Part shown: in pieces, positions 6,724 to 19,802 of the stretch | Numbering within the stretch: the stretch's first letter is position 1 | How the letters are laid out: each line of letters starts with the position of its first letter | Assembly: GCA_903868245.1 (NCBI GenBank) | Contig: CAIPUN010000060.1 | Location: 1-33,501, forward strand | DNA length: 33,501 nucleotides | Reading direction: 5' to 3' | Source: an uncultured Sphingomonadales bacterium | Lineage (GTDB): Bacteria; Pseudomonadota; Alphaproteobacteria; Sphingomonadales; Sphingomonadaceae | Position numbers and translations under genes: made by a program | The notes under the pieces: generated by a model | The model's input: the letters and a program-made list of their open reading frames with translations, nothing else | The model's database searches: none | Told to the model about the DNA's origin: nothing

Positions 6724-7509
6724 TTATTGGCCGGTGAACGCTGCTTTGCGCTTTTCCACGAACGCTTTGGTGCCTTCGACAGCATCGCTCGAGCTGCCGG
6801 CAATCCGTTGCCCTTCGGCTTCAGCGAGCAATTGTTCGGCGTAAGAGTTTTCCAACGCGGTCAGGATGTTTTTGCGCATCACCGCATATGCGACGGTCGG
6901 GCCATTGGCGAGCCGGGTCGCCAGAGCGCGCGCTTCTGTCTGCAACGATTCATCTTCGACGCATTTGTATATCATGCCCCAATCAGCCGCTTTTTCACCG
7001 CTGATTTTTTCACCTAGCAACATCATTTCTGTGGCGCGCGCTTTGCCAACCAAGCGTGGTAGCATCCACGATGCGCCTCCGTCAGGGACGAGGCCAATAT
7101 TTACAAAAGCCTGAAGAAAATATCCGGATTTGCCCGCAATTACAAAATCGCCGCATAGTCCGATGGAGCAGCCAACCCCGGCTGCAGCGCCGTTGATGGC
7201 CGTGACGATGGGCATATTCAAACGCGCGAGGTTCATCATCAGCGGGTTATAATGGCGTGTCAATGCGATGTAACTGCCTTCCCCGCGGGCAACCGATCGG
7301 TCACCGCGTGCGGATAGATCCGCGCCGGAACAAAAGCCACGCCCTGCGCCAGTAATGACAAGACAGCGTGCGTCGCCAAGACCATTGGAAACGGCATCGT
7401 TTATTTCACCGGCCATTTCGAGTGAGCAAGCGTTCATACGTTCAGGGCGGTTGAGGGTGATAGTTGCAATCTTATCGGCAACATCCAAAGTGATCGTTTC
7501 ATAAGTCAT
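6724..7509 (-). CDS. Enoyl-CoA hydratase/isomerase family protein, PaaG-like
   Basis: A 261-residue crotonase-fold protein. The oxyanion-hole segments are GAGRGFCSGADLS and NGAAAGVGCS. Both glutamates of classical enoyl-CoA hydratase are absent: the E144 position is S115 (GCS) and the E164 position is F135 (QAF). D143 in GLVPDGG matches the catalytic Asp of PaaG, the ring-1,2-epoxyphenylacetyl-CoA isomerase. The C-terminus EGTKAFVEKRKAAFTG also resembles PaaG. An isomerase reaction is therefore likelier than hydration. I set the start at 7509 because GGAGGAGG lies just upstream and the protein then begins MTYETITLDV; the frame is open further upstream but into the preceding gene. It is the last gene of the operon, 43 bases after the preceding acyl-CoA dehydrogenase gene. 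The substrate is unknown. Confidence 0.88.
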   Translation of the reverse strand: MTYETITLDVADKIATITLNRPERMNACSLEMAGEINDAVSNGLGDARCLVITGAGRGFCSGADLSARGDRSVARGEGSYIALTRHYNPLMMNLARLNMPIVTAINGAAAGVGCSIGLCGDFVIAGKSGYFLQAFVNIGLVPDGGASWMLPRLVGKARATEMMLLGEKISGEKAADWGMIYKCVEDESLQTEARALATRLANGPTVAYAVMRKNILTALENSYAEQLLAEAEGQRIAGSSSDAVEGTKAFVEKRKAAFTGQ

Positions 7510-7552: not shown

Positions 7553-8719
7553 TCAGTCGCGCGTTCCGAGCAAGTCTCGTGCGACCACCCAATTGTGAAT
7601 TTCGCTTGGCCCATCATAAATGCGCATCGTCCGCAATTTGTTGGAAAGTAGATAAAGCGGCACTTCACGCGTCATCCCCATACCGCCAAACATCTGCATC
7701 GCATGGTCGACAATGTCATAAGCATTTTCGGTGCAATAGGATTTGATCATCGAAATTTCTTGTCTGGTGTCACGCCCTTCATCCATTTTCCATGCGCAAT
7801 CATATGTCATCAATCGCATGGCATGAATCCGTATGGCGGCATCAGAAACCCAATTCTGCACCGTTTGGCGGGACGATAAAGGTTTGCCAAAAGTCACGCG
7901 TTGCGGCGCATATTCGATCATCATATCAAGCGCGCGCTGCGCCATACCAATTGACCAAGAGGCCATTTCTATCCGTCTTGTGCCCAACCGGACTTGCATT
8001 GGCAAAAACCCCTGTCCACGCTTGCCGAGCAGTTTCCAGCCTGGGACGCGGCAATCGTCGAGCGCAATTTCATAGGTCGCCGTGCCGTCGATCATCGGAA
8101 TTTTACGCAGGACATTGAAACCCGGTGTGTCGCGGTCGACCAGAAATGCCGACATGCCATTTCGGCCTTCGGCATTTTTGTCGGTCACGGCCATCAATAT
8201 GGTAAAATCGGCCTCGTCGGCTTTCGTGATCCAGATTTTGCGCCCGTTGATAATCCAGTCGTCGCCATCCTGAACGGCGGTGGTCTTCATCAATTGCGGG
8301 TCGGCGCCTGCGCCGGGTTCCGATATACCAATAGCAGATATCGTCTCGCCGCGCACATAAGGCGCCAGATAATGTGCGCGCTGCTTTTCGTCCGCAGCAG
8401 CCATCATCATGCGTAAATTGGGCGAGTCTGGCGGGATTGTGTAAGGCGTAACCGTCCGTCCAAGTTCTTCGCCAACACCAACCATAGCGACCATCGGCAA
8501 GTTCATGCCGCCCACTTCCTCTGGCGCATCCAATCCCCATAGGCCCAGATCCTTGGACACGAGATCAACACGCGCCTGTTCTTCTTTGGTCAGATAACTG
8601 CCTTTGCCCGCGGTCTCGCGCGCCAACACGTCGCTTTCTAGTGGCATAAGTTGGGAGTCCACAAATTTGCGGACAAGGTCTTTGAGCATCTGATGCTCTT
8701 CAGCGAGTGCGAAATTCAT
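7553..8719 (-). CDS. Acyl-CoA dehydrogenase (ACAD10/11-like active site)
   Basis: This 388-residue flavoprotein of the acyl-CoA dehydrogenase family should introduce a 2,3-double bond into an acyl-CoA and pass electrons to ETF. Family landmarks are GISEPGAGADPQLMKTTA (FAD/substrate-binding loop), IINGRKIWITKADEADF, and the helical C-terminal domain with MFGGMGMTREVPL. The catalytic base region reads RIYDGPSEIH, so Asp369 occupies the place of the usual YEG glutamate. From memory, DGP-type motifs occur in the ACAD10/11 branch, which tends to use larger or substituted acyl chains. AAGGA lies seven bases before the ATG at 8719. It is seventh in the operon, 15 bases after the previous dehydrogenase gene. 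The substrate is not predictable. Confidence 0.9.
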   Translation of the reverse strand: MNFALAEEHQMLKDLVRKFVDSQLMPLESDVLARETAGKGSYLTKEEQARVDLVSKDLGLWGLDAPEEVGGMNLPMVAMVGVGEELGRTVTPYTIPPDSPNLRMMMAAADEKQRAHYLAPYVRGETISAIGISEPGAGADPQLMKTTAVQDGDDWIINGRKIWITKADEADFTILMAVTDKNAEGRNGMSAFLVDRDTPGFNVLRKIPMIDGTATYEIALDDCRVPGWKLLGKRGQGFLPMQVRLGTRRIEMASWSIGMAQRALDMMIEYAPQRVTFGKPLSSRQTVQNWVSDAAIRIHAMRLMTYDCAWKMDEGRDTRQEISMIKSYCTENAYDIVDHAMQMFGGMGMTREVPLYLLSNKLRTMRIYDGPSEIHNWVVARDLLGTRD

Positions 8720-8734
8720 GGGCGTATCCTTGAC

Positions 8735-9892
8735 TTAATAGCTTCGCGGAAGACCGAGAACATGCTCGGCAAGGTAACTGAGGATCAGGTTAGTACTAAT
8801 CGGAGCAACGGTATAAAGGCGCGCCTCGCGGAATTTTCGTTCGACATCATATTCTTCTGCAAAGCCAAAACCACCATGCGTTTGCACGCACATGTCGGCG
8901 GCGGCCCAGCTTGCTTCTGACGCAAGAAGTTTCGCCATATTCGCCTCTGCTCCCGGGTTACCGCCCGCGTCAAACACCTGCGCCGCATGATGGACCATCA
9001 ATTCTGCTGCACACATTTGTGCGTAGCAGCGCGCGATCGGAAACTGCACACCTTGGTTCTGACCGATGGCGCGACCAAAAACATTGCGTTCTTTAGAGTA
9101 ATCCGTCGCTTTTTTGATAAACCATTTGGCATCACCAATACATTCGGCGGCAATGAGGATACGCTCGGCATTCATGCCCGACAGGATGTAGCGGAAACCT
9201 TTACCCTCCTCACCAACCAAGGCGGATGCTGGAATCCGCATGTCATCGAAGAATATTTCGGTCGTTGAATGGTTCATCATCGTCCGGATAGGCTTGATCG
9301 TCATGCCATTCCCGACCACTTTGCGCATATCGACCAAAAAGATGGAGAGCCCTTCGGTCTTACTCGCCACTTCTTCACGCGGGGTCGTGCGTGCCAGTAA
9401 CATCATGAGGTCCGAATATTCCGCACGACTGGTCCAGATTTTCTGACCATTGATGATGTAATCGTCGCCATCCCTAACTGCGACCGTCCGCAGCGAAAGC
9501 GTATCGGTACCGCTGATCGGTTCAGATACACCAAAGGCCTGCAGGCGTAGTTCCCCTGTTGCAATGCGTGGCAGATATTCCTGCTTCTGTGCTGCGCTGC
9601 CATATTTCAGCAGCGTATTCATAATGTACATCTGCGCATGGGCCGAAGCGCCATTACAGCCGGACGCTTGAATTTCTTCCATGATCACAGCGGCGGCATC
9701 AAGCTTTAACCCTGATCCCCCATAGACTTCCGGGATCAGCGCAGCGAGAAACCCCGCTTTGGTGAGCGCATCGACAAATTCACCGGGATAGGAACGTTCC
9801 TGGTCTTTTTTCCGCCAATATTCGCCAGGAAACTCCGCGCATAATGCTTGGACCGCACGGCGTATTTCGCTAATATCTGGGCTTTCAGACAT
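8735..9892 (-). CDS. Acyl-CoA dehydrogenase (IVD/LCAD-like base position)
   Basis: A 385-residue acyl-CoA dehydrogenase with the FAD-contact segments FGVSEPISGTDTLSLRT and IINGQKIWTSRAEYSD, an R-x-x-FG motif (RNVFGRAIGQNQ), and QTHGGFGFAEEYDVER. The C-terminal segment reads RLYTVAPISTN and lacks the YEG glutamate found in medium-chain enzymes. Instead E243 in GMNAERILIAA aligns with the catalytic Glu of isovaleryl-CoA and long-chain dehydrogenases. That placement is usually linked to branched or longer substrates. The gene start overlaps the hydratase stop by eight bases, pointing to coupled translation. It is the sixth gene of the operon. It most likely acts on a CoA ester from the same pathway, but I cannot name it. 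Confidence 0.9.
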   Translation of the reverse strand: MSESPDISEIRRAVQALCAEFPGEYWRKKDQERSYPGEFVDALTKAGFLAALIPEVYGGSGLKLDAAAVIMEEIQASGCNGASAHAQMYIMNTLLKYGSAAQKQEYLPRIATGELRLQAFGVSEPISGTDTLSLRTVAVRDGDDYIINGQKIWTSRAEYSDLMMLLARTTPREEVASKTEGLSIFLVDMRKVVGNGMTIKPIRTMMNHSTTEIFFDDMRIPASALVGEEGKGFRYILSGMNAERILIAAECIGDAKWFIKKATDYSKERNVFGRAIGQNQGVQFPIARCYAQMCAAELMVHHAAQVFDAGGNPGAEANMAKLLASEASWAAADMCVQTHGGFGFAEEYDVERKFREARLYTVAPISTNLILSYLAEHVLGLPRSY

Positions 9893-10751
9893 TCAGTTGT
9901 TTCCTTTGCGCGGCTGCCGCTGTGACTTGCCGTCCATCGGCGGCAAAGGCGGCCATTTCGATTTCATCCCCCGATCCACGCATCACAAGATGCAAAGCCT
10001 CGCCACAGATTGCCGGCGAGAGGCCTCGGTAAGAAAAATGTGCCAACGCATTATCACCGAGTTCCCGTCGCGCCAAATCCAGTAAAAATGTCGCCGTCAA
10101 CGGACCATGGACAACAAGCCCGCGATAGCGCTCTTCGCCTTGCGTATAAGGTAGATCATAATGGATGCGATGGCTGTTGAACGTTAGCGCGGAGAAGCGG
10201 AATAAAAGTGTTTCGGTTGGTACAAGCATGCGGTGCTTGCTCCAACCCTCTGCGTCGAAGCTTCCCACAATATTTTCAGGCGGTGATAAAGCAGCGCATG
10301 CCGCGGCGGCAGAACGATACACGATGCTCTGCACCTCGCGAACCGCCATGCCCGCTTCGCCAAAGGTTTCATGGGCGACATCGACAAATACTAATTGGCC
10401 AGATCCGCCAGATTTTTCAGTGATGGATTGAACGCGCGACGTCCGGGTAACGGCTTCACCTAACTGCAGGGGTGCAAAAAAATCGACTTTGCTGGATGCC
10501 CACATGCGGCGCGGCAATGGTACGGGCGGAAGGAAACTTTGCGGGCTGTCATCACGCACAGGGTGGCCATCTGGTCCCAATTGCGCAGTTGCTGCGTCTG
10601 GCACGCATAAGCACCAATGGAGCCCCTGTGGTACCGTGCTATCGCCGGTAGCGTCACGATCAAAAGTCGCAAGCCAGCGCGCCACCAAACCATGTTCGAT
10701 GCGATCTGTCCGCACTTCTTCACGTCCAATCCAAGCGTCCCATGCACTCAT
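9885..10751 (-). CDS. FAS1-like/MaoC-type hydratase resembling mesaconyl-C4-CoA or itaconyl-CoA hydratase
   Basis: A 288-residue double-hotdog protein. The N-terminal half has WIGREEVRTD, QGLHWCLCVPD, LGPDGHPV and FLPPVPLPRRMWA, features I associate with the COG3777 family. That family holds mesaconyl-C4-CoA hydratase (Meh, 3-hydroxypropionate bicycle) and itaconyl-CoA hydratase (Ich). The C-terminal half has the hydratase-2-type elements FNSHRIHYD (residues 191-199) and GLVVHGPL (211-218). Meh-type enzymes hydrate a methyl-branched unsaturated dicarboxylyl-CoA to citramalyl-CoA. It overlaps the Mcd-like gene by four bases (ATGA) and the next dehydrogenase gene by eight. The adjacent Mcd-like and Mct-like enzymes support a role in C5-type dicarboxylyl-CoA chemistry. 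The exact substrate is inference. Confidence 0.82.
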   Translation of the reverse strand: MSAWDAWIGREEVRTDRIEHGLVARWLATFDRDATGDSTVPQGLHWCLCVPDAATAQLGPDGHPVRDDSPQSFLPPVPLPRRMWASSKVDFFAPLQLGEAVTRTSRVQSITEKSGGSGQLVFVDVAHETFGEAGMAVREVQSIVYRSAAAACAALSPPENIVGSFDAEGWSKHRMLVPTETLLFRFSALTFNSHRIHYDLPYTQGEERYRGLVVHGPLTATFLLDLARRELGDNALAHFSYRGLSPAICGEALHLVMRGSGDEIEMAAFAADGRQVTAAAAQRKQLNV

Positions 10752-12340
10752 TTGTTGCGACCTCCCATCAGACCCTTGGCTATCACTTGCGCTTGAATTT
10801 CGGCGGCGCCTTCAAAAATATTCAAAATGCGTGCATCGCACAAAACACGGCTGATTTCATATTCCAGCGAATAGCCATTGCCACCATGAATTTGTAGGGC
10901 TGCATCGGCATTATTCCACGCCACGCGGGCAGCCAGCAGTTTCGCCATGCCAGCCTCAATATCGCATCTTTTGTCCAAATCCTTTGCGCGCGCCGCTGCA
11001 TAAGTCAGTTCACGCGACATCACGAAATCAGCCAAGCTCATGGCAATTTTATCGGCAACGCGGGGAAAACCGACAATCGACTTGCCAAATTGCTTGCGGT
11101 TAACGGCATAGTCGAGGCCCAGCTCTAACGCGCGCCTGGCAACACCTACGGCCCGCGCTGCCGTCTGAATACGCGCGCCTTCAAATGTGCGCATCAACTG
11201 TTTGAATCCCTGCCCTTCTTGACCGCCCAGCAAGGCATCATCAGGCGCAATCATAGCATCAAATTGCAGCGCATATTCCCGCATGCCACGATAACCCAGC
11301 ACTTCTATTTCGCTGCCGGACATGCCCTCTGCGGGAAAGGCATCTGATTCTGTTCCGCGCGGCTTTGGCACCAGCAACATGGATAGTCCCGCATAGCCCT
11401 TTATTTCAGGGGCTGTGCGCACGAGCATCGTCATCAGATCAGAGCGACTGGCATGGGTGATCCAAGTCTTTGCGCCGTCAATGATCCAATTTCCATTATC
11501 ACGCCGCGCCCGTGTCTGTAACGCGCCAAGGTCAGAACCCGTGTCGGGTTCCGTAAACACTGCGGTTGGCAAGACTGCTCCACTCGCGATTTTCGGCAGC
11601 CAATGCGCCTTTTGCGGTTCGGTGCCGCCCATGGAAATCAATTCACCAGCGATTTCAGACCGTGTGCTCAGCGAACCCGCACCAATCCAGCCACGCGAGA
11701 GCTCTTCGGTTATCACACACATGACCAGCTTGGATAAGCCAAGACCGCCATATTCGGCAGGAATACACACGCCAAAAGTCCCGAGCTGCGCCATTTCATT
11801 GATGGTCTCATCGGGGATCAGGTCATTCGCAAGGTGCCACTTGTGCGCGTGTGGCAATATTTTGCTTTCCGTAAATCGTCGATATTGGTCGCGGATAACG
11901 TCCAGTTCGCCGTCATGCAGCTTCTCGCTTGGCATCTGCCCATCAGCCAACGCTTGCGCCACTGCAGCCCTCGTTTCTGTTTGGTTGTCATTAAACCAAG
12001 ACACGCAATTTTGGGCGAGCGATTCTGCAGCGCTGGTGATTCCAAGATCGATAGGACGGAAAATTTCGTTCTGGCCCATTGGCAACCCGCCGGTCAGTTG
12101 CGCCAGAGTTTCTGCAAAAATAAGCGATGCGACCAATTGGTCAAGCTGGGTACCGCCGTCATTACTCTGAAGCCAACCGCACACCGCTTCCAACGCCGCA
12201 ACACTGGTTGCTATCCAAGCAAGTCCGTGTGCGGCGCGTTGATTGCTATCAATATCACTCTGCACCAAATGCACAGCGAGCGCCGATTCTGCTGCATCGC
12301 GATAGCCCTCAGCGGCTTTTAGAGCGGCCGCAAAGCTCAT
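10748..12340 (-). CDS. Long acyl-CoA dehydrogenase resembling methylsuccinyl-CoA dehydrogenase (Mcd)
   Basis: At 530 residues this is about 145 longer than ordinary acyl-CoA dehydrogenases, because of an N-terminal helical extension (residues 1-145) ahead of the usual fold. The core reads FRRFTE-like RRFTESKILPHAHKWHL, FTEPDTGSDLGALQTRA, KTWITHASRSDLMT, GSEIEVLGYRGMREY and ALQIHGGNGYSLEYEISRV, ending RILNIFEGAAEIQAQVIA with catalytic E510. From memory this combination, including the extension, is that of (2S)-methylsuccinyl-CoA dehydrogenase of the ethylmalonyl-CoA pathway, which makes mesaconyl-C1-CoA. No crotonyl-CoA carboxylase, ethylmalonyl-CoA mutase or malyl-CoA lyase is nearby, so the context differs from that pathway. 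It overlaps the thiolase and hydratase genes by four bases each. A related substituted succinyl-CoA is a possible alternative substrate. Confidence 0.83.
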   Translation of the reverse strand: MSFAAALKAAEGYRDAAESALAVHLVQSDIDSNQRAAHGLAWIATSVAALEAVCGWLQSNDGGTQLDQLVASLIFAETLAQLTGGLPMGQNEIFRPIDLGITSAAESLAQNCVSWFNDNQTETRAAVAQALADGQMPSEKLHDGELDVIRDQYRRFTESKILPHAHKWHLANDLIPDETINEMAQLGTFGVCIPAEYGGLGLSKLVMCVITEELSRGWIGAGSLSTRSEIAGELISMGGTEPQKAHWLPKIASGAVLPTAVFTEPDTGSDLGALQTRARRDNGNWIIDGAKTWITHASRSDLMTMLVRTAPEIKGYAGLSMLLVPKPRGTESDAFPAEGMSGSEIEVLGYRGMREYALQFDAMIAPDDALLGGQEGQGFKQLMRTFEGARIQTAARAVGVARRALELGLDYAVNRKQFGKSIVGFPRVADKIAMSLADFVMSRELTYAAARAKDLDKRCDIEAGMAKLLAARVAWNNADAALQIHGGNGYSLEYEISRVLCDARILNIFEGAAEIQAQVIAKGLMGGRNK

Positions 12341-13551
12341 GCGCGCTCAAATACCGCCGCAATTCCCTGACCGCCGCCAATGCACATCGTTTCAAGACCG
12401 AAACGGACGTCCCGGCGATGCATCTCGCGGGTGAGGTTCGCCAATATCCGACCACCAGTTGCGCCAATGGGATGGCCAAGCGAAATGCCAGACCCGTTGA
12501 CGTTAAGCATGTCATGACGACCGTCATCATCCGACCAGCCCCAGCCCTTGAGACAGGCCAACACCTGCGGCGCAAACGCCTCGTTCAATTCAATCAGACC
12601 GATGTCGTCCCAAGAAAGGCCATTGCGCGCAAAGAGCCGCTCTGTGGCAGGCACCGGACCATAGCCCATTCGCGAAGGCTCGCAGCCGGCGGCGGCCCAG
12701 CTATGAAAATATGCGATGGGCTCAAGCCCCAGTTCTTCAAGCTTATCCTCCGCTACAACAAGGCATGCTGCGGCCGCGTCATTTTGCTGGCTCGCATTGC
12801 CCGCCGTAACAACGCCACCTTCGAGCGGACGTAAAGACGCCATAGTTTCGACCGTGGCATCGGCGCGATAGCCTTCGTCATGGTCAAAGACGATTGGATC
12901 ACCCTTTCTTTGCGGAATGCTGACTGGCACCAATTCATCATCAAACAAGCCGTTCGCCCATGCCGCAGCTGCACGTTGATGCGATCGCGCTGCATAAGCA
13001 TCGCAAGCTTCGCGGCTGATGCCATGGTCTTTTGCTAGATTTTCTGCGGTCTCAATCATGCCACTAATCACGCCAAAACGCTCGACTGGCTGGCTCATCA
13101 CCCGCCCACGCGTCAGGCGATCATGCAGCGTCAGATTGCCGGCACGAACGCCTTTGCGGATATCCGTAGTGTAGTGCTCGACGTTGGACATGCTTTCGCA
13201 ACCACCGGCGACCACCACATCGCTAACCCCCGTTTGTACCATCATCGCAGCATTCACAATTGCTTGCAGGCCAGATCCACAACGACGGTCGACTTGATAC
13301 CCCGGAACCTCAATCGGAAGGCCCGCCGCAAGCCAAGCCCAATGTCCAATGCAAGGTGCTTCTCCATTGCCATAGCCTTGGGCAAATACCACGTCGTCCA
13401 CGCGGGTCGGATCAATCTTTGTCCGCTCGATCAGTGCCTTGAGGATGATACCGCCCAAGTCACCTGCGTTGAGTGAGGATAAGGCACCGCCAAATTTGCC
13501 GACGGGCGTGCGGATGGGGGCGACAATAGCGGCACGGCGAAGCTTATTCAT
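12337..13551 (-). CDS. Acetyl-CoA acetyltransferase/acyltransferase family thiolase
   Basis: A 404-residue thiolase. The nucleophile is C91 in DRRCGSGLQAI. The second active-site group is H360 in GSGISLGHPIGATG with C390 in MCIGGGQG, and NEAFAPQ is also conserved. Thiolases of this class cleave a 3-ketoacyl-CoA with CoA, releasing acetyl-CoA or propionyl-CoA; the reverse condensation is possible but less likely in a catabolic operon. It overlaps the CoA-transferase gene upstream and the Mcd-like gene downstream by four bases each. No 3-hydroxyacyl-CoA dehydrogenase is encoded in the operon to make its substrate, so that step must come from elsewhere. Full length, no anomalies in the active site. 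Confidence 0.93.
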   Translation of the reverse strand: MNKLRRAAIVAPIRTPVGKFGGALSSLNAGDLGGIILKALIERTKIDPTRVDDVVFAQGYGNGEAPCIGHWAWLAAGLPIEVPGYQVDRRCGSGLQAIVNAAMMVQTGVSDVVVAGGCESMSNVEHYTTDIRKGVRAGNLTLHDRLTRGRVMSQPVERFGVISGMIETAENLAKDHGISREACDAYAARSHQRAAAAWANGLFDDELVPVSIPQRKGDPIVFDHDEGYRADATVETMASLRPLEGGVVTAGNASQQNDAAAACLVVAEDKLEELGLEPIAYFHSWAAAGCEPSRMGYGPVPATERLFARNGLSWDDIGLIELNEAFAPQVLACLKGWGWSDDDGRHDMLNVNGSGISLGHPIGATGGRILANLTREMHRRDVRFGLETMCIGGGQGIAAVFERA

Positions 13552-14750
13552 TTAGCAATTCCTATTATTCCAGAGTCAATAAGACGGGCAATTTCGCCCG
13601 AGGACAGGCCAAGCGACGTACTCAATATTTCCTCGCTATGCTCCCCGTTGCGTGGAGCTGCCTTTGCGTCACCACGCTGCAATTGGGGAATGCTACCAAA
13701 GGCACCAGCGGCAGGATAATTGAAACCCGATGGGTTCGCGTCAAAGGCCGAAAACATGGGATTGTTCCCGACCAAGCGTGGATCATGCGCAGCGTCCAAC
13801 ATGGTTCGATAGGCCGAGTGAACAATTCCTGCCTCATCAAGCGTGGCAGCCATCACCGCGTGATCCAGCGAACCAATCGCTTTTTCAAACAAAGGATAAA
13901 GCGCATCACGATGTTCAAAGCGAAGCCCATCATCTTTGGCGAAGCTAACGCCGCGCGCCGTCTCAATCGCCTCCACTTGCGCCTTCAGACCTAGCGCACC
14001 AATCAGGTTCGCCCATTGGCGGTGCGTAACAACAACGATCATGGTGCGTATATTGTCTTTGGTAACGAAATCACGCCCAAACAAACCATAGACCGCGTTG
14101 CCAAGCCGAGGACGATTGGTCTTGTTATGCAGCACTTCGGCTATACCGCCCAGATTGGAAACTGTGCCGATGGCTACATCCGACAGGGGAATGCGGACTT
14201 CACTGCCTTCCCCAGTTTGTTCGCGCCTCCGAATGGCGGCCAGCATGGCAAATGCAGCATAGGCGCCGCTGATGATATCCCACGCAGGCAAAACATGGTT
14301 GACTGGTTCTGGGCCAGCCCCAGTCATCATGGGATAACCAACGGCATTGTTCACGGTATAGTCGAGTGCAGGCGCACCATCGGCCCAGCCCATCACCCGG
14401 ACGGTGACAAGATCAGCACGCCCTTCCGCCAATATCGCATGTGACAAGAAACCCTCGGCTGGGAAATTAGTGATGAACTGCCCTGTCGCCCGAACGAGTT
14501 CCTGCAACAATTCACGTCCTTGCTGACTAGATAAATCAAGTGCCAGCGACTTTTTGGCACGATTTAGATTTTCCCAGTACAGCGAGTCATTAGCCTCAGT
14601 CACTGGCCAGCGATGATAATCAGGGCCGCCCCCAATTTGGTCGACACGGATGACCTCTGCGCCGAACTGCGCGCAATATAGACCAGCCGTCGGTGACGCC
14701 ACAAAGGACGACGCCTCGATAATCTTCAGTCCATCCAACAAGTTATACAT
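13548..14750 (-). CDS. CaiB/BaiF CoA-transferase resembling mesaconyl-CoA C1-C4 isomerase (Mct)
   Basis: A 400-residue class III CoA-transferase. The N-terminal Rossmann part reads LDGLKIIEASSFVASP, QFGAEVIRVDQIGGGPD and NRAKKSLALDL. The catalytic Asp of the family is D158 in VNHVLPAWDIISG. From memory VNHVLPAWD, together with ITNFPAEG and RPRLGNAVYGLFGRDF, is close to 2-methylfumaryl-CoA (mesaconyl-CoA) isomerase, Mct, of the Chloroflexus 3-hydroxypropionate bicycle. Mct moves CoA within one molecule from the C1 to the C4 carboxyl. Ordinary family members transfer CoA between two acids, and that role (activating a free acid) remains possible. It starts 17 bases after the first dehydrogenase gene and overlaps the thiolase gene by four bases. 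The Meh-like and Mcd-like neighbours favour the Mct reading. Confidence 0.83.
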   Translation of the reverse strand: MYNLLDGLKIIEASSFVASPTAGLYCAQFGAEVIRVDQIGGGPDYHRWPVTEANDSLYWENLNRAKKSLALDLSSQQGRELLQELVRATGQFITNFPAEGFLSHAILAEGRADLVTVRVMGWADGAPALDYTVNNAVGYPMMTGAGPEPVNHVLPAWDIISGAYAAFAMLAAIRRREQTGEGSEVRIPLSDVAIGTVSNLGGIAEVLHNKTNRPRLGNAVYGLFGRDFVTKDNIRTMIVVVTHRQWANLIGALGLKAQVEAIETARGVSFAKDDGLRFEHRDALYPLFEKAIGSLDHAVMAATLDEAGIVHSAYRTMLDAAHDPRLVGNNPMFSAFDANPSGFNYPAAGAFGSIPQLQRGDAKAAPRNGEHSEEILSTSLGLSSGEIARLIDSGIIGIAK

Positions 14751-14767: not shown

Positions 14768-15922
14768 TCAGGATTGGGCAGCCCATTCACGCAGCATATG
14801 TTTCGCAATCTGGAGCTGCAAAATTTGCGTCGTACCCTCATAAATCCGGTAAATGCGGGCGTCGCGGTAGAAGCGCTCCGCGTCATATTCCGCAAGATAG
14901 CCAGCACCGCCGTAAATCTGGACAACACGATCAACGACCCTACCACACATTTCGGTGGCGAATACCTTGGCCGCAGCGGCCTTTCGCAGGACATTCTCGC
15001 CTGCATCAGCCCGGCGGGCAGCATCATCGAGCATACATTCAGCGGCGTAGATTTCGATGTCACTATCCGCCAGCATTTGCTGGATAAGTTGGAAGTTGGC
15101 AATGGGTTCGCCAAAGGCTTTACGTTCATTGGCGTAACGCAGAGCGCTATCGAGCGCACGGCGGGCATATCCCGCAGCCGCAGCGCCAACGGACAGGCGT
15201 CCATTATCGAGGCTCTGCATCGCAAAGCCAAAGCCCTTACCTTCTTCGCCGCCCAAGATCGCATCGGCCGGCAATTTTACATCTTCCATAATGATATCGG
15301 CAATGTGGCTTCCCGCCTGCCCCATTTTCTTGTCGGAATTACCCACGCTAATGCCAGCCGTGTCCATAGGTACAATAAAGGCCGAAACATGGGCATTTTT
15401 TGGCAAGGCTTCTTTGCTGGTTCGCGCCATAATCAGCGCAACCTTTGCGAAGGGCGCATTGGTTATGTACCGCTTGGTCCCATTTAATACCCAGCCATTA
15501 CCGGATTTCACCGCGATGGTCTGCATAGCAGCAGAATCCGAGCCGGACCCTGGCTCCGTAAGCCCGAATGAGGCAATTTCACCCGCTGCCAAACGCGGTA
15601 GCCATTCTGCTTTCTGTGCGTCAGTGCCACCATTTTTGAAAGCCGAACACACCATCCCGATGTTGATAGATGTAATTGACCTATAACAGGGCATGGCATA
15701 GCTCAATTCACGGATCGTGCGGATATATTGCTGAATATTCATTCCCGCGCCGCCATATTCTTCGGGCATCGTCAAACCAAACAGACCCATGTCGCGCATT
15801 TCGGCAAGGATCGGGTCAGGAATTATGTCTGTTTCGAGAATTTCCTTCTCAGCTGGAATTAACCGTTCGCGAACATAGCGTTGAAGCTGCGCAATAAACT
15901 GTTCGAAAATGTCGTTATCCAT
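14768..15922 (-). CDS. Acyl-CoA dehydrogenase, short/medium-chain type, first gene of the CoA-ester operon
   Basis: A 384-residue acyl-CoA dehydrogenase with all standard features: MPEEYGGAGM, FGLTEPGSGSDSAAMQT (FAD/acyl contact), LNGTKRYITNAPFAKV, NERKAFGEPIANFQ, QIYGGAGYLAEYDAER, and the catalytic glutamate E362 in RIYEGTTQIL, as in medium- and short-chain enzymes. It oxidises an acyl-CoA to the 2-enoyl-CoA using ETF. The ATG at 15922 is preceded by AGGGGAGG (minus strand, 15931-15938) eight bases upstream, the strongest ribosome binding site in the operon, as expected for the first gene. A candidate promoter lies at 15988-16015. The chain-length preference cannot be deduced. Confidence 0.92.
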   Translation of the reverse strand: MDNDIFEQFIAQLQRYVRERLIPAEKEILETDIIPDPILAEMRDMGLFGLTMPEEYGGAGMNIQQYIRTIRELSYAMPCYRSITSINIGMVCSAFKNGGTDAQKAEWLPRLAAGEIASFGLTEPGSGSDSAAMQTIAVKSGNGWVLNGTKRYITNAPFAKVALIMARTSKEALPKNAHVSAFIVPMDTAGISVGNSDKKMGQAGSHIADIIMEDVKLPADAILGGEEGKGFGFAMQSLDNGRLSVGAAAAGYARRALDSALRYANERKAFGEPIANFQLIQQMLADSDIEIYAAECMLDDAARRADAGENVLRKAAAAKVFATEMCGRVVDRVVQIYGGAGYLAEYDAERFYRDARIYRIYEGTTQILQLQIAKHMLREWAAQS

Positions 15923-16228: not shown

Positions 16229-17131
16229 ATGACCAAAACCCTGACGCATCTCGCCCGCCTTGAGGCAGAAGCAATCCACATCATGCGGGAGGTTGTTGCC
16301 GAAGCTGACAAGCCGGTGATGCTGTATAGCGTGGGTAAGGACAGCGCCGTTATGCTCCATTTGGCGCGCAAGGCATTCTATCCGGCGCCTCCGCCATTTC
16401 CATTGCTTCATATCGATACAACGTGGAAATTCAAGGCGATGTACGCGTTGCGTGAAAAGGCTGCACGCGATGCCGGTATGGAATTGCTGGTGCATCAAAA
16501 CCCCGAGGCACATGCGCGTGGCATCAACCCTTTTGATCACGGATCATTGCACACCGACATGTGGAAAACCCAAGGGCTAAAGCAAGCGCTTGACCGATAT
16601 GGTTTTGATGTCGCCTTTGGTGGAGCAAGGCGTGATGAGGAAAAGAGCCGGGCTAAGGAACGCATTTTCTCCTTCCGCACTGCGACCCATATCTGGGACC
16701 CAAAGAACCAGCGGCCCGAATTATGGAACCTGTATAATGCCCGCAAGGCGAAAGCAGAGAGCATAAGGGTCTTCCCCATCTCCAACTGGACCGAGCTCGA
16801 TATCTGGCAATATATCCATCTTGAGAATATCGAGATTGTGCCGCTATATTTCAGCGCGCCGCGCCCCACGGTCACACGCGACGGCATGCTTCTGATGGTC
16901 GATGATGAACGTTTCCCTTTGAAGAAAGGCGAGGTTCCCGTCGAACGCTCGATCCGTTTCCGGACGCTTGGCTGCTATCCGCTAACGGGCGCTGTCGAGA
17001 GTATGGCGTCAACCTTGCCTGAAGTTATCCAGGAAATGCTGCTGACAACCACCTCGGAACGCCAAGGGCGCGCGATTGACCATGATCAGGCCGCAAGCAT
17101 GGAGAAAAAGAAACAGGAGGGCTATTTCTGA
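16229..17131 (+). CDS. cysD: Sulfate adenylyltransferase subunit 2 (small subunit)
   Basis: The 300-residue CysD catalyses formation of adenosine 5'-phosphosulfate from ATP and sulfate, driven by GTP hydrolysis in its partner CysN. The PP-loop [18 protein letters not shown] lies at about residues 31-48. [20 protein letters not shown] and the C-terminal [14 protein letters not shown] are characteristic. The ATG at 16229 has AGGAAGA at 16212-16218. The stop codon shares one base with the cysNC start (TGATG), so the two subunits are translationally coupled, as expected for a 1:1 complex in the cytoplasm. It is the first gene of the sulfate activation operon. Its length is normal for the family. 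Confidence 0.97.
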
Positions 17132-19053
17132 TGTCAGATGTGCCCCCCCATAATAGCATTTATAAAACCGATAAGCTTATTGCTTCGGACATAGACGCCT
17201 ACCTGAATGTCCACCAGCATAAGTCGCTTTTGCGGTTCATCACCTGCGGCTCCGTAGATGACGGCAAATCGACTCTCATCGGTCGATTATTGTACGATTC
17301 CAAAATGATTTTTGAAGATCAACTTGCGACTTTGGAATCCGATTCCAAACGAATGGGCACGCAAGGCCAGGAAATTGACTTTGCTTTGCTTGTGGACGGT
17401 CTTGCAGCTGAGCGTGAGCAAGGCATCACGATCGACGTCGCCTACCGATTTTTCGCCACAGAGAAGCGAAAATTCATCGTCGCCGATTGCCCCGGCCATG
17501 AACAATATACACGGAATATGGTAACGGGCGCATCAACGGCCGACCTTGCTGTAATCTTGATCGACGCCCGAAAAGGGGTACTCCTCCAAACACGGCGTCA
17601 TAGCTACCTTGCCAAGTTATTGGGCATTCGAAACATCGTTCTGGCCGTGAACAAGATGGACCTGATCGATTATAATCAGGCAAAATATGATGCTATCGTT
17701 GCCGAATATACCTCATTTGCGAATAGTATCGGCATAGACGATTTTACCGCCATGCCGATTTCCGGTTTCAAAGGCGATAACATCACAGAGCGTTCCGTCC
17801 ATATGCCATGGTATACAGGGCAACCGCTGATAACGCATTTGGAGACCGTCGCGCTGGATAACGACGCGGACCAAACCAAAGCATTGCGAATGCCAGTACA
17901 ATGGGTCAACCGCCCAAATCTGGATTTTCGGGGATTTTCAGGCCAGATCGCAACCGGCACACTGCGTCCCGGTGATTCCATTCGAGTGCTGCCGTCTGGT
18001 AAGACGTCAACGATCACCAAGATCGTCACGCTGGATGGCGAGCTTAGCGAAGCCGTTGCAGGTCAATCGGTCACCCTGTGCTTTGCTGATGAAATCGACT
18101 GTTCACGCGGAGATGTGATTGCCGCAGCAGACAATCCACCCGAGATGTCCGACCAGTTTGAAAGCACCATTGTCTGGATGGCTGACGAGGCTTTGGTTCC
18201 GGGACGAGCCTATTGGCTTAAGCTTGGGACGCAAACGGTTTCCGCCACTGTTCAGTCGCCAAAATACGCAATCAGTGTAAACAACATGGAGCATATGGCC
18301 GCCAAGACGTTGGAACTCAACGCTATTGGGGTCGCGGAAATATTAACTGACAAAGCTATTGTGTTCGAACCCTATGTGAACAACCATGTTCTGGGCGGAT
18401 ATATTCTGATCGATAAGATCACCAATGCGACCGTTGCGGCCGGCATGCTGCACTTTTCTCTGCGTCGCGCACAGAATGTTCATTGGCAAGCGACCGACAT
18501 TGGTCGCGAGGCACATGCTGCGCTTAAAAACCAAAAACCAAAGATATTATGGTTCACCGGTCTTTCTGGTTCGGGTAAATCGACAATTGCCAATGAAGTG
18601 GAAAAAACACTCAATCTGCTGAACCGGCATACATTTTTGCTCGATGGCGACAATATTCGCCACGGCCTCAATAAGGATTTGGGCTTTACCGAAACCGACC
18701 GGATTGAAAACATTCGCCGAGTCGGTGAAGTTGCAAAGCTGATGGCAGATGCAGGCCTTATTGTCCTGACTGCGTTTATTTCGCCTTTTCGCGCGGAACG
18801 AGACATGGTGCGCGCGATGATGCCTGAAGGTGAGTTTATCGAGATATTCGTCGACACGCCACTTGAGGTCGCTGAGGCGCGCGACGTGAAGGGGCTTTAT
18901 AAAAAGGCCCGCGCTGGACAATTAAAGAATTTTACAGGTATCGACAGTCCCTATGAACCACCCGAAAACCCAGACATCCGCGTGAACACAGTTGAAATGA
19001 GCGCTGCCGAAGCCGCGGAACATATCGTTCGTCAATTGATGCCGCTGAAATGA
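17131..19053 (+). CDS. cysNC: Bifunctional sulfate adenylyltransferase subunit 1/adenylylsulfate kinase
   Basis: A 640-residue fusion. The N-terminal CysN part (about residues 30-455) is an EF-Tu-like GTPase with [15 protein letters not shown] (P-loop from residue 40), [17 protein letters not shown] (G3) and NKMD (G4), followed by beta-barrel domains. The C-terminal CysC part starts near residue 470 with [15 protein letters not shown] and continues with [17 protein letters not shown] and [15 protein letters not shown]. CysC phosphorylates APS to PAPS. The fusion therefore passes APS directly from sulfurylase to kinase. It overlaps cysD by one base and cysQ by four (ATGA). CysNC fusions are common in alphaproteobacteria. 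No motif residue appears to be lost in either half. Confidence 0.97.
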
Positions 19054-19802
19054 GCATTATAGCCGATGATAGCGCATTGGCTGCGCATTTAGCCGAAATC
19101 GCAGGCAAATTACTGTTGCAAGTGCGGGACAGCGGGCTGCTGTCATTGAAAGCGCTGGGTAAAGCTGGCGATCAGACCGCTAACCAGTTTTTGATCCATG
19201 CAATTACCGAACAACGGCCTGACGACGGATTGTTGTCGGAAGAAAGCAAGGATACCGATGCGCGCCTATCAAAATCGCGCGTGTGGATCATTGATCCAGT
19301 CGATGGCACCAGAGAATATGGTGAAGGCCGCACCGATTGGGCTGTCCACGTCGCGCTCGCTATAGATGGCGCGCCAGTAATTGGTGCGGTTGCACTGCCC
19401 GGTCTAGGTATTGTTTTGAGAAGCGACCAGCCGACTGAAATTCCCGCCGCCCCAAATAAACTGCGCATGGTGATAAGTCGCACAAGGCCCGCAGCGGAAA
19501 CCCTGACCGTAGCAAATGCTTTAGGCGCTGAGTGCATTCCAATGGGTTCAGCAGGCGCGAAGGCAATGGCAGTCGTGCGTGGTGAGGCGGACATCTACCT
19601 ACACAATGGCGGGCAGTATGAATGGGACAATTGCGCACCAGCCGCCGTCGCTGCCGCTTTTGGCCTGCACGTAAGCCGTATTGATGGTAGCGCTTTGGTT
19701 TATAACCAGGCGGATACTTACATCCCAGACTTGCTGATTTGTCGCAAAGAGCATGCCCAGAGCGTATTGAACGCGCTGAAGGCAGCCACGTCGGTCACCT
19801 GA
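19050..19802 (+). CDS. cysQ: 3'(2'),5'-bisphosphate nucleotidase
   Basis: A 250-residue inositol monophosphatase-superfamily enzyme that dephosphorylates 3'-phosphoadenosine 5'-phosphate (PAP), and possibly PAPS, to AMP or APS. It thereby removes the by-product of sulfate activation. The metal-binding motifs are present: LLSEES (about residues 64-69), [12 protein letters not shown] (75-86) and [12 protein letters not shown] (about 190-201). Its start overlaps the cysNC stop by four bases. Placement directly after the PAPS-forming fusion supports CysQ over other inositol-phosphatase relatives. The stop codon lies in the loop of a hairpin that may terminate the operon. PAPS reductase and sulfite reductase genes are not in this window. 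Confidence 0.92.

Follow-up and report, generated by a model that had tools for sequence, protein, structure and literature searches.

An eight-gene operon with Mcd, Mct and Meh homologues

The window analysed here is a stretch of 33,501 nucleotides that makes up a whole contig (G000:C60) in the genome of an uncultured Sphingomonadales bacterium, a metagenome-assembled genome (MAG) of 1.97 Mb that is 95% complete. Its closest named relatives are Sphingorhabdus (among the best 80 named loci), the Mct of S. rigui DSM 29050 being 94% identical. The window holds an operon of eight genes, here called A to H, all on the minus strand from 15922 to 6724, which encodes homologues of (2S)-methylsuccinyl-C1-coenzyme A (CoA) dehydrogenase (Mcd), of mesaconyl-CoA C1–C4 CoA transferase (Mct) and of the Meh/Ich kind of hydratase, and which we propose as a catabolic module for methylsuccinyl-CoA. 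A first-pass annotation of this DNA had placed B, C, D and E in one operon, linked by ATGA overlaps through the thiolase gene C. Its gene coordinates and links hold, with 4-base ATGA overlaps at B/C (13548–13551), C/D (12337–12340) and D/E (10748–10751); its span was too short, however, since the operon also takes in A, F, G and H. E and F overlap by 8 bases (9885–9892), and F, which encodes a C4-type dehydrogenase, is the most important of the genes that had been overlooked.

Gene D (10748..12340, minus strand) encodes a protein of 530 residues whose best match in the Protein Data Bank (PDB) is Mcd of Paracoccus (6es9; 592 bits over residues 30–525), followed by 8ciw, titled (2S)-methylsuccinyl-CoA dehydrogenase, at 265 bits. 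Mcd combines an N-terminal extension of ∼170 residues with an acyl-CoA dehydrogenase core; D has this architecture, as the first-pass annotation had recognised, and most of the extension is aligned. We compared 13 active-site positions of Paracoccus Mcd, chosen from the structure paper, according to which three arginines near the free carboxylate, an Ala/Phe methyl pocket and a catalytic Glu form the substrate site (PMC5798300). D retains 11 of the 13 (S248, R252, A285, F287, Y375, R376, E380, T418, R421, F534 and E535), and so keeps the three carboxylate-binding arginines R252, R376 and R421, the methyl pocket A285/F287 and the catalytic E535; it deviates at two positions, Y243W and K379R. 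The controls were A, F and G of the window together with two rhizobial dehydrogenases; none of A, F and G carries the residue set, A sharing just the catalytic Glu. Sequence similarity, active-site residues and a tree make D an Mcd homologue. Enzymes of the Paracoccus type are reported to be ∼200-fold slower on succinyl-CoA, activity on the (2R) isomer being given as not detectable.

Gene B (13548..14750, minus strand; 400 residues) encodes a family III CoA transferase. Its best PDB matches are two Mct structures, at 325 and 320 bits, with the next family at 94 bits, and its best NCBIfam model is TIGR04253 (341.5 bits; next model, 101 bits). The PDB matches of D, B and E (592, 325 and 165 bits) are far beyond chance. 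Aligned with Chloroflexus Mct, to which it is 45% identical, B keeps D165, R47, Y136, N100, D37 and F101. The catalytic Asp that the first-pass annotation had assigned, D158 (codon 14277..14279, minus strand), is the counterpart of Chloroflexus D165; all ten members of an alignment (A1) share this Asp as well as R47 and D37. Judged from these alignments, the B site shows conservation at its substrate end but not at its CoA-tunnel end; because the tunnel residues are altered and the substrate end is kept, we claim B as Mct-like in action and not as strictly intramolecular. B thus appears to work like Mct and is closest to mesaconyl-CoA C1–C4 transferase, its proposed role being C1/C4 CoA transfer on mesaconyl-CoA (or methylsuccinyl-CoA).

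Gene E (9885..10751, minus strand; 288 residues) has itaconyl-CoA hydratase 8khg as its best PDB match (165 bits) and matches no NCBIfam model. A Meh-like hydratase had been noted in the operon before, and this match agrees with E being a putative member of the Meh/Ich group. Itaconyl-CoA hydratase is reported to accept mesaconyl-C4-CoA for hydration as well (PMC12290011), and we propose the conversion of mesaconyl-C4-CoA to citramalyl-CoA for E. Gene F (8735..9892, minus strand) encodes a homologue of the C4-type methylsuccinyl-CoA dehydrogenase, 64% identical to the enzyme of the itaconate/methylsuccinate cluster of P. aeruginosa and 60–64% identical to Marinobacter and Variovorax dehydrogenases from clusters with a similar gene set. 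In a tree it groups with the Marinobacter and Variovorax enzymes with a support of 100 in the Shimodaira–Hasegawa-like approximate likelihood ratio test (SH-aLRT), F itself lying outside the conserved cluster. Each CoA isomer would then have its own candidate dehydrogenase in the operon, D and F, and B would link both.

An Ich-like E next to an F of that dehydrogenase type would also be found in a plain itaconate/methylsuccinate degradation cluster, where B would activate the free acid from succinyl-CoA. We consider this very unlikely: B is closest to Mct and only 23–24% identical to the cluster CoA transferase of Marinobacter and Variovorax, no MmgE/PrpD isomerase is among the eight genes, and the C1-type Mcd would be left without a role. 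On the 23–24% identity, a plain itaconate cluster with B as its itaconate CoA transferase was rejected.

The other four genes are general beta-oxidation genes. A (14768..15922, minus strand; 384 residues) encodes an acyl-CoA dehydrogenase of short-chain type, by its best PDB matches (272 bits), and would take the first step on the parent acyl-CoA. C (12337..13551, minus strand; 404 residues) encodes a thiolase of the PRK06205 group (683 bits, cut-off 551) that probably makes methylsuccinyl-C1-CoA from a substrate like 4-methyl-3-oxoadipyl-CoA, as its profile match and co-occurrence suggest. G (7553..8719, minus strand; 388 residues) matches an acyl-CoA dehydrogenase profile, and copies 92–97% identical to it occur in 8 of the best 80 named loci. 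H (6724..7509, minus strand; 261 residues) encodes a PRK05981/PaaG-like enoyl-CoA hydratase/isomerase that starts at the ATG at 7509; the listed open reading frame (ORF) runs to 7668, and the profile match (333.6 bits, cut-off 351) starts at residue 54. The operon is flanked by cysDNC-type sulfate genes on one side and folK on the other; cysD, a cysN/apsK fusion and a cysQ-like gene lie at 16229–19802, divergent from the operon. A promoter scan was uninformative, with 13 sites against 7.9 (standard deviation 3.2) in shuffles and 8 terminators against 11.7.

Distribution and gene order in relatives

Homologues were counted in 296 genomes of the order, sampled evenly from a larger set; 213 of them belong to the family of the window. 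The thresholds were E ≤ 1e-60 for Mct, E ≤ 1e-150 for Mcd and F, E ≤ 1e-100 for crotonyl-CoA carboxylase/reductase (Ccr) and a best E ≤ 1e-170 for C. Mct was present in 118/296 genomes (116 of them in the family), Mcd in 87/296 (63 in the family) and Ccr, always over its cut-off, in 27/296, with 0/213 in the family. All 63 family genomes with Mcd also carry Mct, and none of the 63 carries Ccr; outside the family, all 24 genomes with Mcd, which come from four further families of the order, have Ccr, within 400 bases by coordinates. A genome outside the family (G098; contigs C288, which is locus L043, and C142) has Ccr, Mcd, Mct and F together; this MAG is 77% complete, and transfer is indistinguishable from contamination in it.

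Within the family, Mcd occurs in 63 of the 116 genomes with Mct against 0 of the 97 without, F in 88/116 versus 7/97, a homologue of thiolase C in 111/116 versus 4/97, and Mcd or F in 109/116 versus 7/97. Five genera include genomes of both kinds, and there Mcd is found in 34/37 with Mct and 0/39 without, F in 34/37 and 4/39; in the other genera Mct is uniform, being present in every sampled genome of 20 and absent from all of 24 (58 genomes). Because 53 of the 116 have no Mcd, Mct is independent of Mcd, and F may account for 46 of the 53. The remaining seven have neither Mcd nor F. Five of them (G160, G182, G219, G252 and G264) carry an 8ciw-type protein, 56–64% identical to a long dehydrogenase adjoining Mct in Paraburkholderia D15, whose best PDB match is 8ciw (686 bits) and through which the five homologues were assigned; G126 and G168 have no Mcd, F or 8ciw-type protein.

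These counts bear on whether the genes could serve in the manner of the pathways from which their homologues are known. Mct and Meh belong to the 3-hydroxypropionate bicycle and Mcd to the ethylmalonyl-CoA pathway, and both Mct and Meh are listed as enzymes of the non-autotrophic symbiont Kentron in a figure legend (PMC6593406). A role of this type is nonetheless highly improbable for the operon. The first-pass annotation had found none of the diagnostic genes of either pathway in the window, and genome-wide the search for Ccr gave 10 matches in the 95% complete MAG with none over cut-off, as in the 213 family genomes; the key enzymes of the bicycle, malonyl-CoA reductase and propionyl-CoA synthase among them, were not searched for. 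The tightest partners of Mct are, moreover, the thiolase and the second type of methylsuccinyl-CoA dehydrogenase. Methylsuccinyl-CoA dehydrogenases and a thiolase are not known to be part of the 3-hydroxypropionate bicycle. Since the genome has no Ccr over cut-off, D is not part of an ethylmalonyl-CoA pathway, and that pathway was rejected for the genome and the family alike. Mesaconyl-C1-CoA hydratase (Mch, PF19315), another enzyme of that pathway, was found in 0/296 genomes at E 1e-40, and 14 controls and the 27 Ccr genomes were equally silent, so that this count is uninformative.

Automatic ORF calls gave false genes in G+C-rich relatives, and gene order was therefore read from homology and annotated plasmids. 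Around Mct, 40 loci were selected (from 40 of the 118 genomes; two loci are just 9 kb long), and partners were counted on the same strand up to 6.5 kb away with identity floors of 50% for C, 45% for A, 30% for E, 55% for D and 60% for F. C was a partner in 31 loci, A in 29, E in 25, D in 23 and F in 11. Mcd lies at most 10 kb from Mct in 35 of the 63 family genomes, on the same strand in 34. Named genome loci were the best 80; of 24 plasmid records with Mct, 13 were examined. Two plasmid records carried no annotation, and 4 unlisted records and several from Azospirillum were left out. Plasmid pSHV1 of Sphingobium herbicidovorans carries Mct-Mcd-Meh-lyase consecutively. Among the named loci, S. 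estronivorans AXB has the order Mct-thiolase-Mcd-Meh-lyase-3-hydroxyacyl-CoA dehydrogenase-two enoyl-CoA hydratases, next to genes for a TonB receptor and a regulator of the IclR type. In S. psychrophilum AR-3-1 and Sphingobium sp. AS12 the order is Mct-Mcd-F-Meh-acyl-CoA dehydrogenase-lyase. Paraburkholderia D15 has dehydrogenase-Mct with MaoC-lyase nearby, and several other plasmids have no Mcd beside Mct.

The lyases of these loci were compared with family models. That of pSHV1 scores 266 bits with RipC/Ccl (cut-off 375), 122 with citE and 41 with malyl-CoA lyase, that of S. psychrophilum 173 (cut-off 375), 135 and 28, respectively, and the S. estronivorans lyase shares 61% identity with that of pSHV1. 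In the genome of the window a single HpcH/HpaI-type gene was found; it lies on contig C92, where a small MaoC gene and part of a biotin-dependent carboxylase are its neighbours.

On pCADAB1 (L081), the plasmid of Sphingomonas sp. ERG5 for degradation of 2-methyl-4-chlorophenoxyacetic acid (MCPA), a short unknown gene stands between Mct and Mcd, and the pair adjoins a Tn3 transposase gene. MCPA leads to a methyl-branched 3-oxoadipate and hence to methylsuccinyl-CoA, and the Mct-Mcd pair may handle this methyl-branched end product. The main text of the pCADAB1 paper has no word starting with acyl or methylsuccin (PMC3877037).

In an Mcd tree built by a quick method, from which L063 and L037 (duplicates) and L112 (one of eleven Ccr-adjacent Mcds, just under the length filter) were left out, the ten Ccr-adjacent Mcds cluster with an SH-aLRT of 87. 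On the other side of this split (SH-aLRT 87) lie 26 of 27 family rows near Mct, 17 of 17 far from it and 5 of 6 plasmid rows.

Upstream of the Mct-Mcd-F-Meh-lyase run, L214:1630-8948 encodes a Rieske oxygenase, a fatty acid desaturase-type protein, an SDR and MaoC, together with an HMG-CoA-synthase-like/OB-fold protein and another thiolase, a set that recalls steroid or terpenoid side-chain genes; L083 (Sphingomonas paeninsulae) has a similar one. On plas1 of Qipengyuania citrea (L105:12813-17317), acyl-CoA dehydrogenase-Mct-thiolase-MaoC, with no Mcd, lies near the phenylalanine 4-monooxygenase gene phhA. The plasmid of Comamonadaceae OTU4NAUVB1 (L107:3104-11149) combines Mct with an acetate–CoA ligase family gene, FabG, enoyl-CoA hydratase, thiolase and two MaoC-type hydratases, with no acyl-CoA-type dehydrogenase; a branched acid that is unsaturated from the outset may be the entry compound there. 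In the Paraburkholderia 22B1P plasmid (L108:5523-10248) two CoA transferases, a CoA ester lyase and two MaoC-type hydratases are consecutive, Mct standing last in the row, which resembles a mesaconate or itaconate cluster.

A proposed route for methylsuccinyl-CoA

We think it likely that the operon is a catabolic module for methylsuccinyl-CoA, in which either CoA isomer would be converted through mesaconyl-CoA and citramalyl-CoA to acetyl-CoA and pyruvate; homology, residues, co-occurrence and gene order are the basis from which every reaction is inferred. The parent compound, a dicarboxylyl-CoA with a methyl branch (in the simplest case 4-methyladipyl-CoA), would be oxidized by A, and after hydration and a second oxidation C would cleave the product to acetyl-CoA and methylsuccinyl-C1-CoA. 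D would then convert methylsuccinyl-C1-CoA to mesaconyl-C1-CoA and B the latter to mesaconyl-C4-CoA, to which F would lead directly from methylsuccinyl-C4-CoA, so that both CoA isomers converge. Hydration by E would give citramalyl-CoA, and a CitE/Ccl-type lyase, whose gene lies elsewhere in the genome and in some relatives within the operon, would release acetyl-CoA and pyruvate. As CoA would stay attached throughout, re-activation would cost no ATP. In genomes that have Mct and F without Mcd, B may act one step earlier, on methylsuccinyl-CoA. The suggestion of the first-pass annotation that homologues of Mcd, Mct and Meh act jointly on methylsuccinyl- and mesaconyl-CoA outside the parent pathways is, as a deduction from sequence, supported by the substrate residues of D, the co-occurrence, the lost link to Ccr and the lyase in the operons of relatives.

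Several observations weigh against this reading. Every known intramolecular Mct enzyme is reported to have Leu or Ile at the position of L43 of Chloroflexus Mct (PMC9813914), where B has Pro; R75, R104, S132, E133 and R314 are changed as well, and B scores 383 bits below the TIGR04253 cut-off of 725. F is just 64% identical to the characterised type and is only a presumed stand-in for Mcd. The lyase gene lies outside the window and is not linked to the operon in its own genome, and the C92 protein reaches only 167 bits with RipC/Ccl (cut-off 375) and 134 with citE. In 28/63 genomes Mcd and Mct are on different contigs or more than 10 kb apart, and 53/116 family genomes with Mct have no Mcd; the Fisher test of the family counts over 213 genomes (p < 1e-21) ignores kinship. 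Two Mct-linked Mcds, L041 (near row) and L087 (plasmid row), fall with the Ccr type in the tree, in which the Mcd split has SH-aLRT values of 83 and 87 from a quick search.

The Mct genomes that manage without Mcd, and a B that has neither Leu/Ile43 nor other tunnel-narrowing residues of Mct, could also mean that the same enzyme types work on another branched dicarboxylyl-CoA or a larger one, such as a ring-derived diacid, B moving the CoA to the opposite end for further beta-oxidation. ThnP/ThnO demonstrate such a logic (PMC11659651), A, C, G and H are of general beta-oxidation type, and some relatives have neighbours like those of steroid side chains. We regard this explanation as unlikely, since D retains the methyl pocket A285/F287 together with the three Mcd arginines, Mcd being highly specific for its substrate, and since C5 branched dicarboxylates are indicated by F, by E and by the lyases of relatives alike.

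If the operon acts on methylsuccinyl-CoA, the parent compound is the weakest step of the proposed pathway. Thiolysis of 4-methyl-3-ketoadipyl-CoA is reported to give methylsuccinyl-CoA and acetyl-CoA (PMC6449761), and 3-methyladipate, the end product of human phytanate omega-oxidation (PMC7754141), would be a saturated precursor. Such a beta-oxidation would suit A, C and H, as well as the hydratase genes and the PaaH-like gene of S. estronivorans, and an isoprenoid-acid origin would fit the chemistry; literature on phytol or methyl-branched acids with methylsuccinate held no bacterial route among the matches listed. Our judgement is evenly divided on the wider proposal of a widespread lower pathway in Sphingomonadaceae and near kin, which would be fed by isoprenoid acids (the phytol chain) and methylated aromatics (MCPA) and use an altered Mct, with Mcd taken from Ccr and joined to Mct.

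Significance and comparison with known systems

All parts of the operon are homologous to known enzymes, apparently drawn from three known pathways, and their combination into one route, which would degrade a methyl-branched four-carbon acid as its CoA ester, would be new. No description of Mcd, Mct and Meh in one catabolic route, or of the operon, was found among the matches listed from the full-text literature, in which subscription journals are mostly not included. For several methylated compounds it has hitherto been uncertain which enzymes carry out the methylsuccinyl-CoA step of their degradation. Methylaromatics are stated to yield methylsuccinyl-CoA when degraded (PMC6449761); for 3-methylcatechol, one study describes the later steps as unresolved and methylsuccinate as not converted by whole cells (PMC4321380); and the methylsuccinate route of 2025 covers the C4-CoA isomer (PMC12290011). 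The operon would supply the missing C1 branch of methylsuccinyl-CoA use. It would also place Mct, an enzyme of autotrophic CO2 fixation, in ordinary catabolism and correct the annotation of such genes as ethylmalonyl-CoA or CO2-fixation pathways, and it gives concrete genes for growth tests and parts for synthetic methylsuccinyl-CoA/pyruvate routes.

D is like Mcd of the ethylmalonyl-CoA pathway (Paracoccus 6es9; PMC5798300) over residues 30–525, extension included, and in 11 of 13 residues, whereas in the family of the window Mcd pairs with Mct and not with Ccr (213 genomes). B resembles Mct of the 3-hydroxypropionate bicycle (Mct/Meh: 8apq, 7xkg; PMC9813914, PMC9196870) in its 45% identity and in D165, R47 and Y136, and differs in L43, replaced by Pro, and in changed tunnel residues. 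A parallel to the intramolecular CoA transfer that B may carry out is found in ThnP/ThnO of anaerobic naphthalene degradation, where it lets an acyl-CoA dehydrogenase work from the other end (PMC11659651). ThnP differs from B in being a family I transferase and in its larger ring substrate.

The gene for Rv2498c lies in a leucine-breakdown operon. The candidate lyase in the genome of the window belongs to the same wider CitE-like family as the Rv2498c-type (S)-citramalyl-CoA lyase (PMC6689899) and differs in its setting, on another contig than the operon. The pseudomonad itaconate/methylsuccinate cluster has a C4-type dehydrogenase and a hydratase homologous to F and E, and for C. necator methylsuccinyl-C1-CoA is described as a dead end (PMC12290011); the operon differs from this cluster in having no MmgE/PrpD isomerase or Ict-type transferase and in adding a C1-type dehydrogenase and Mct. 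In the modified 3-oxoadipate (mml) pathway for methylaromatics a thiolase likewise yields methylsuccinyl-CoA and acetyl-CoA (PMC6449761), and the operon would be a lower route for the methylsuccinyl-CoA formed there.

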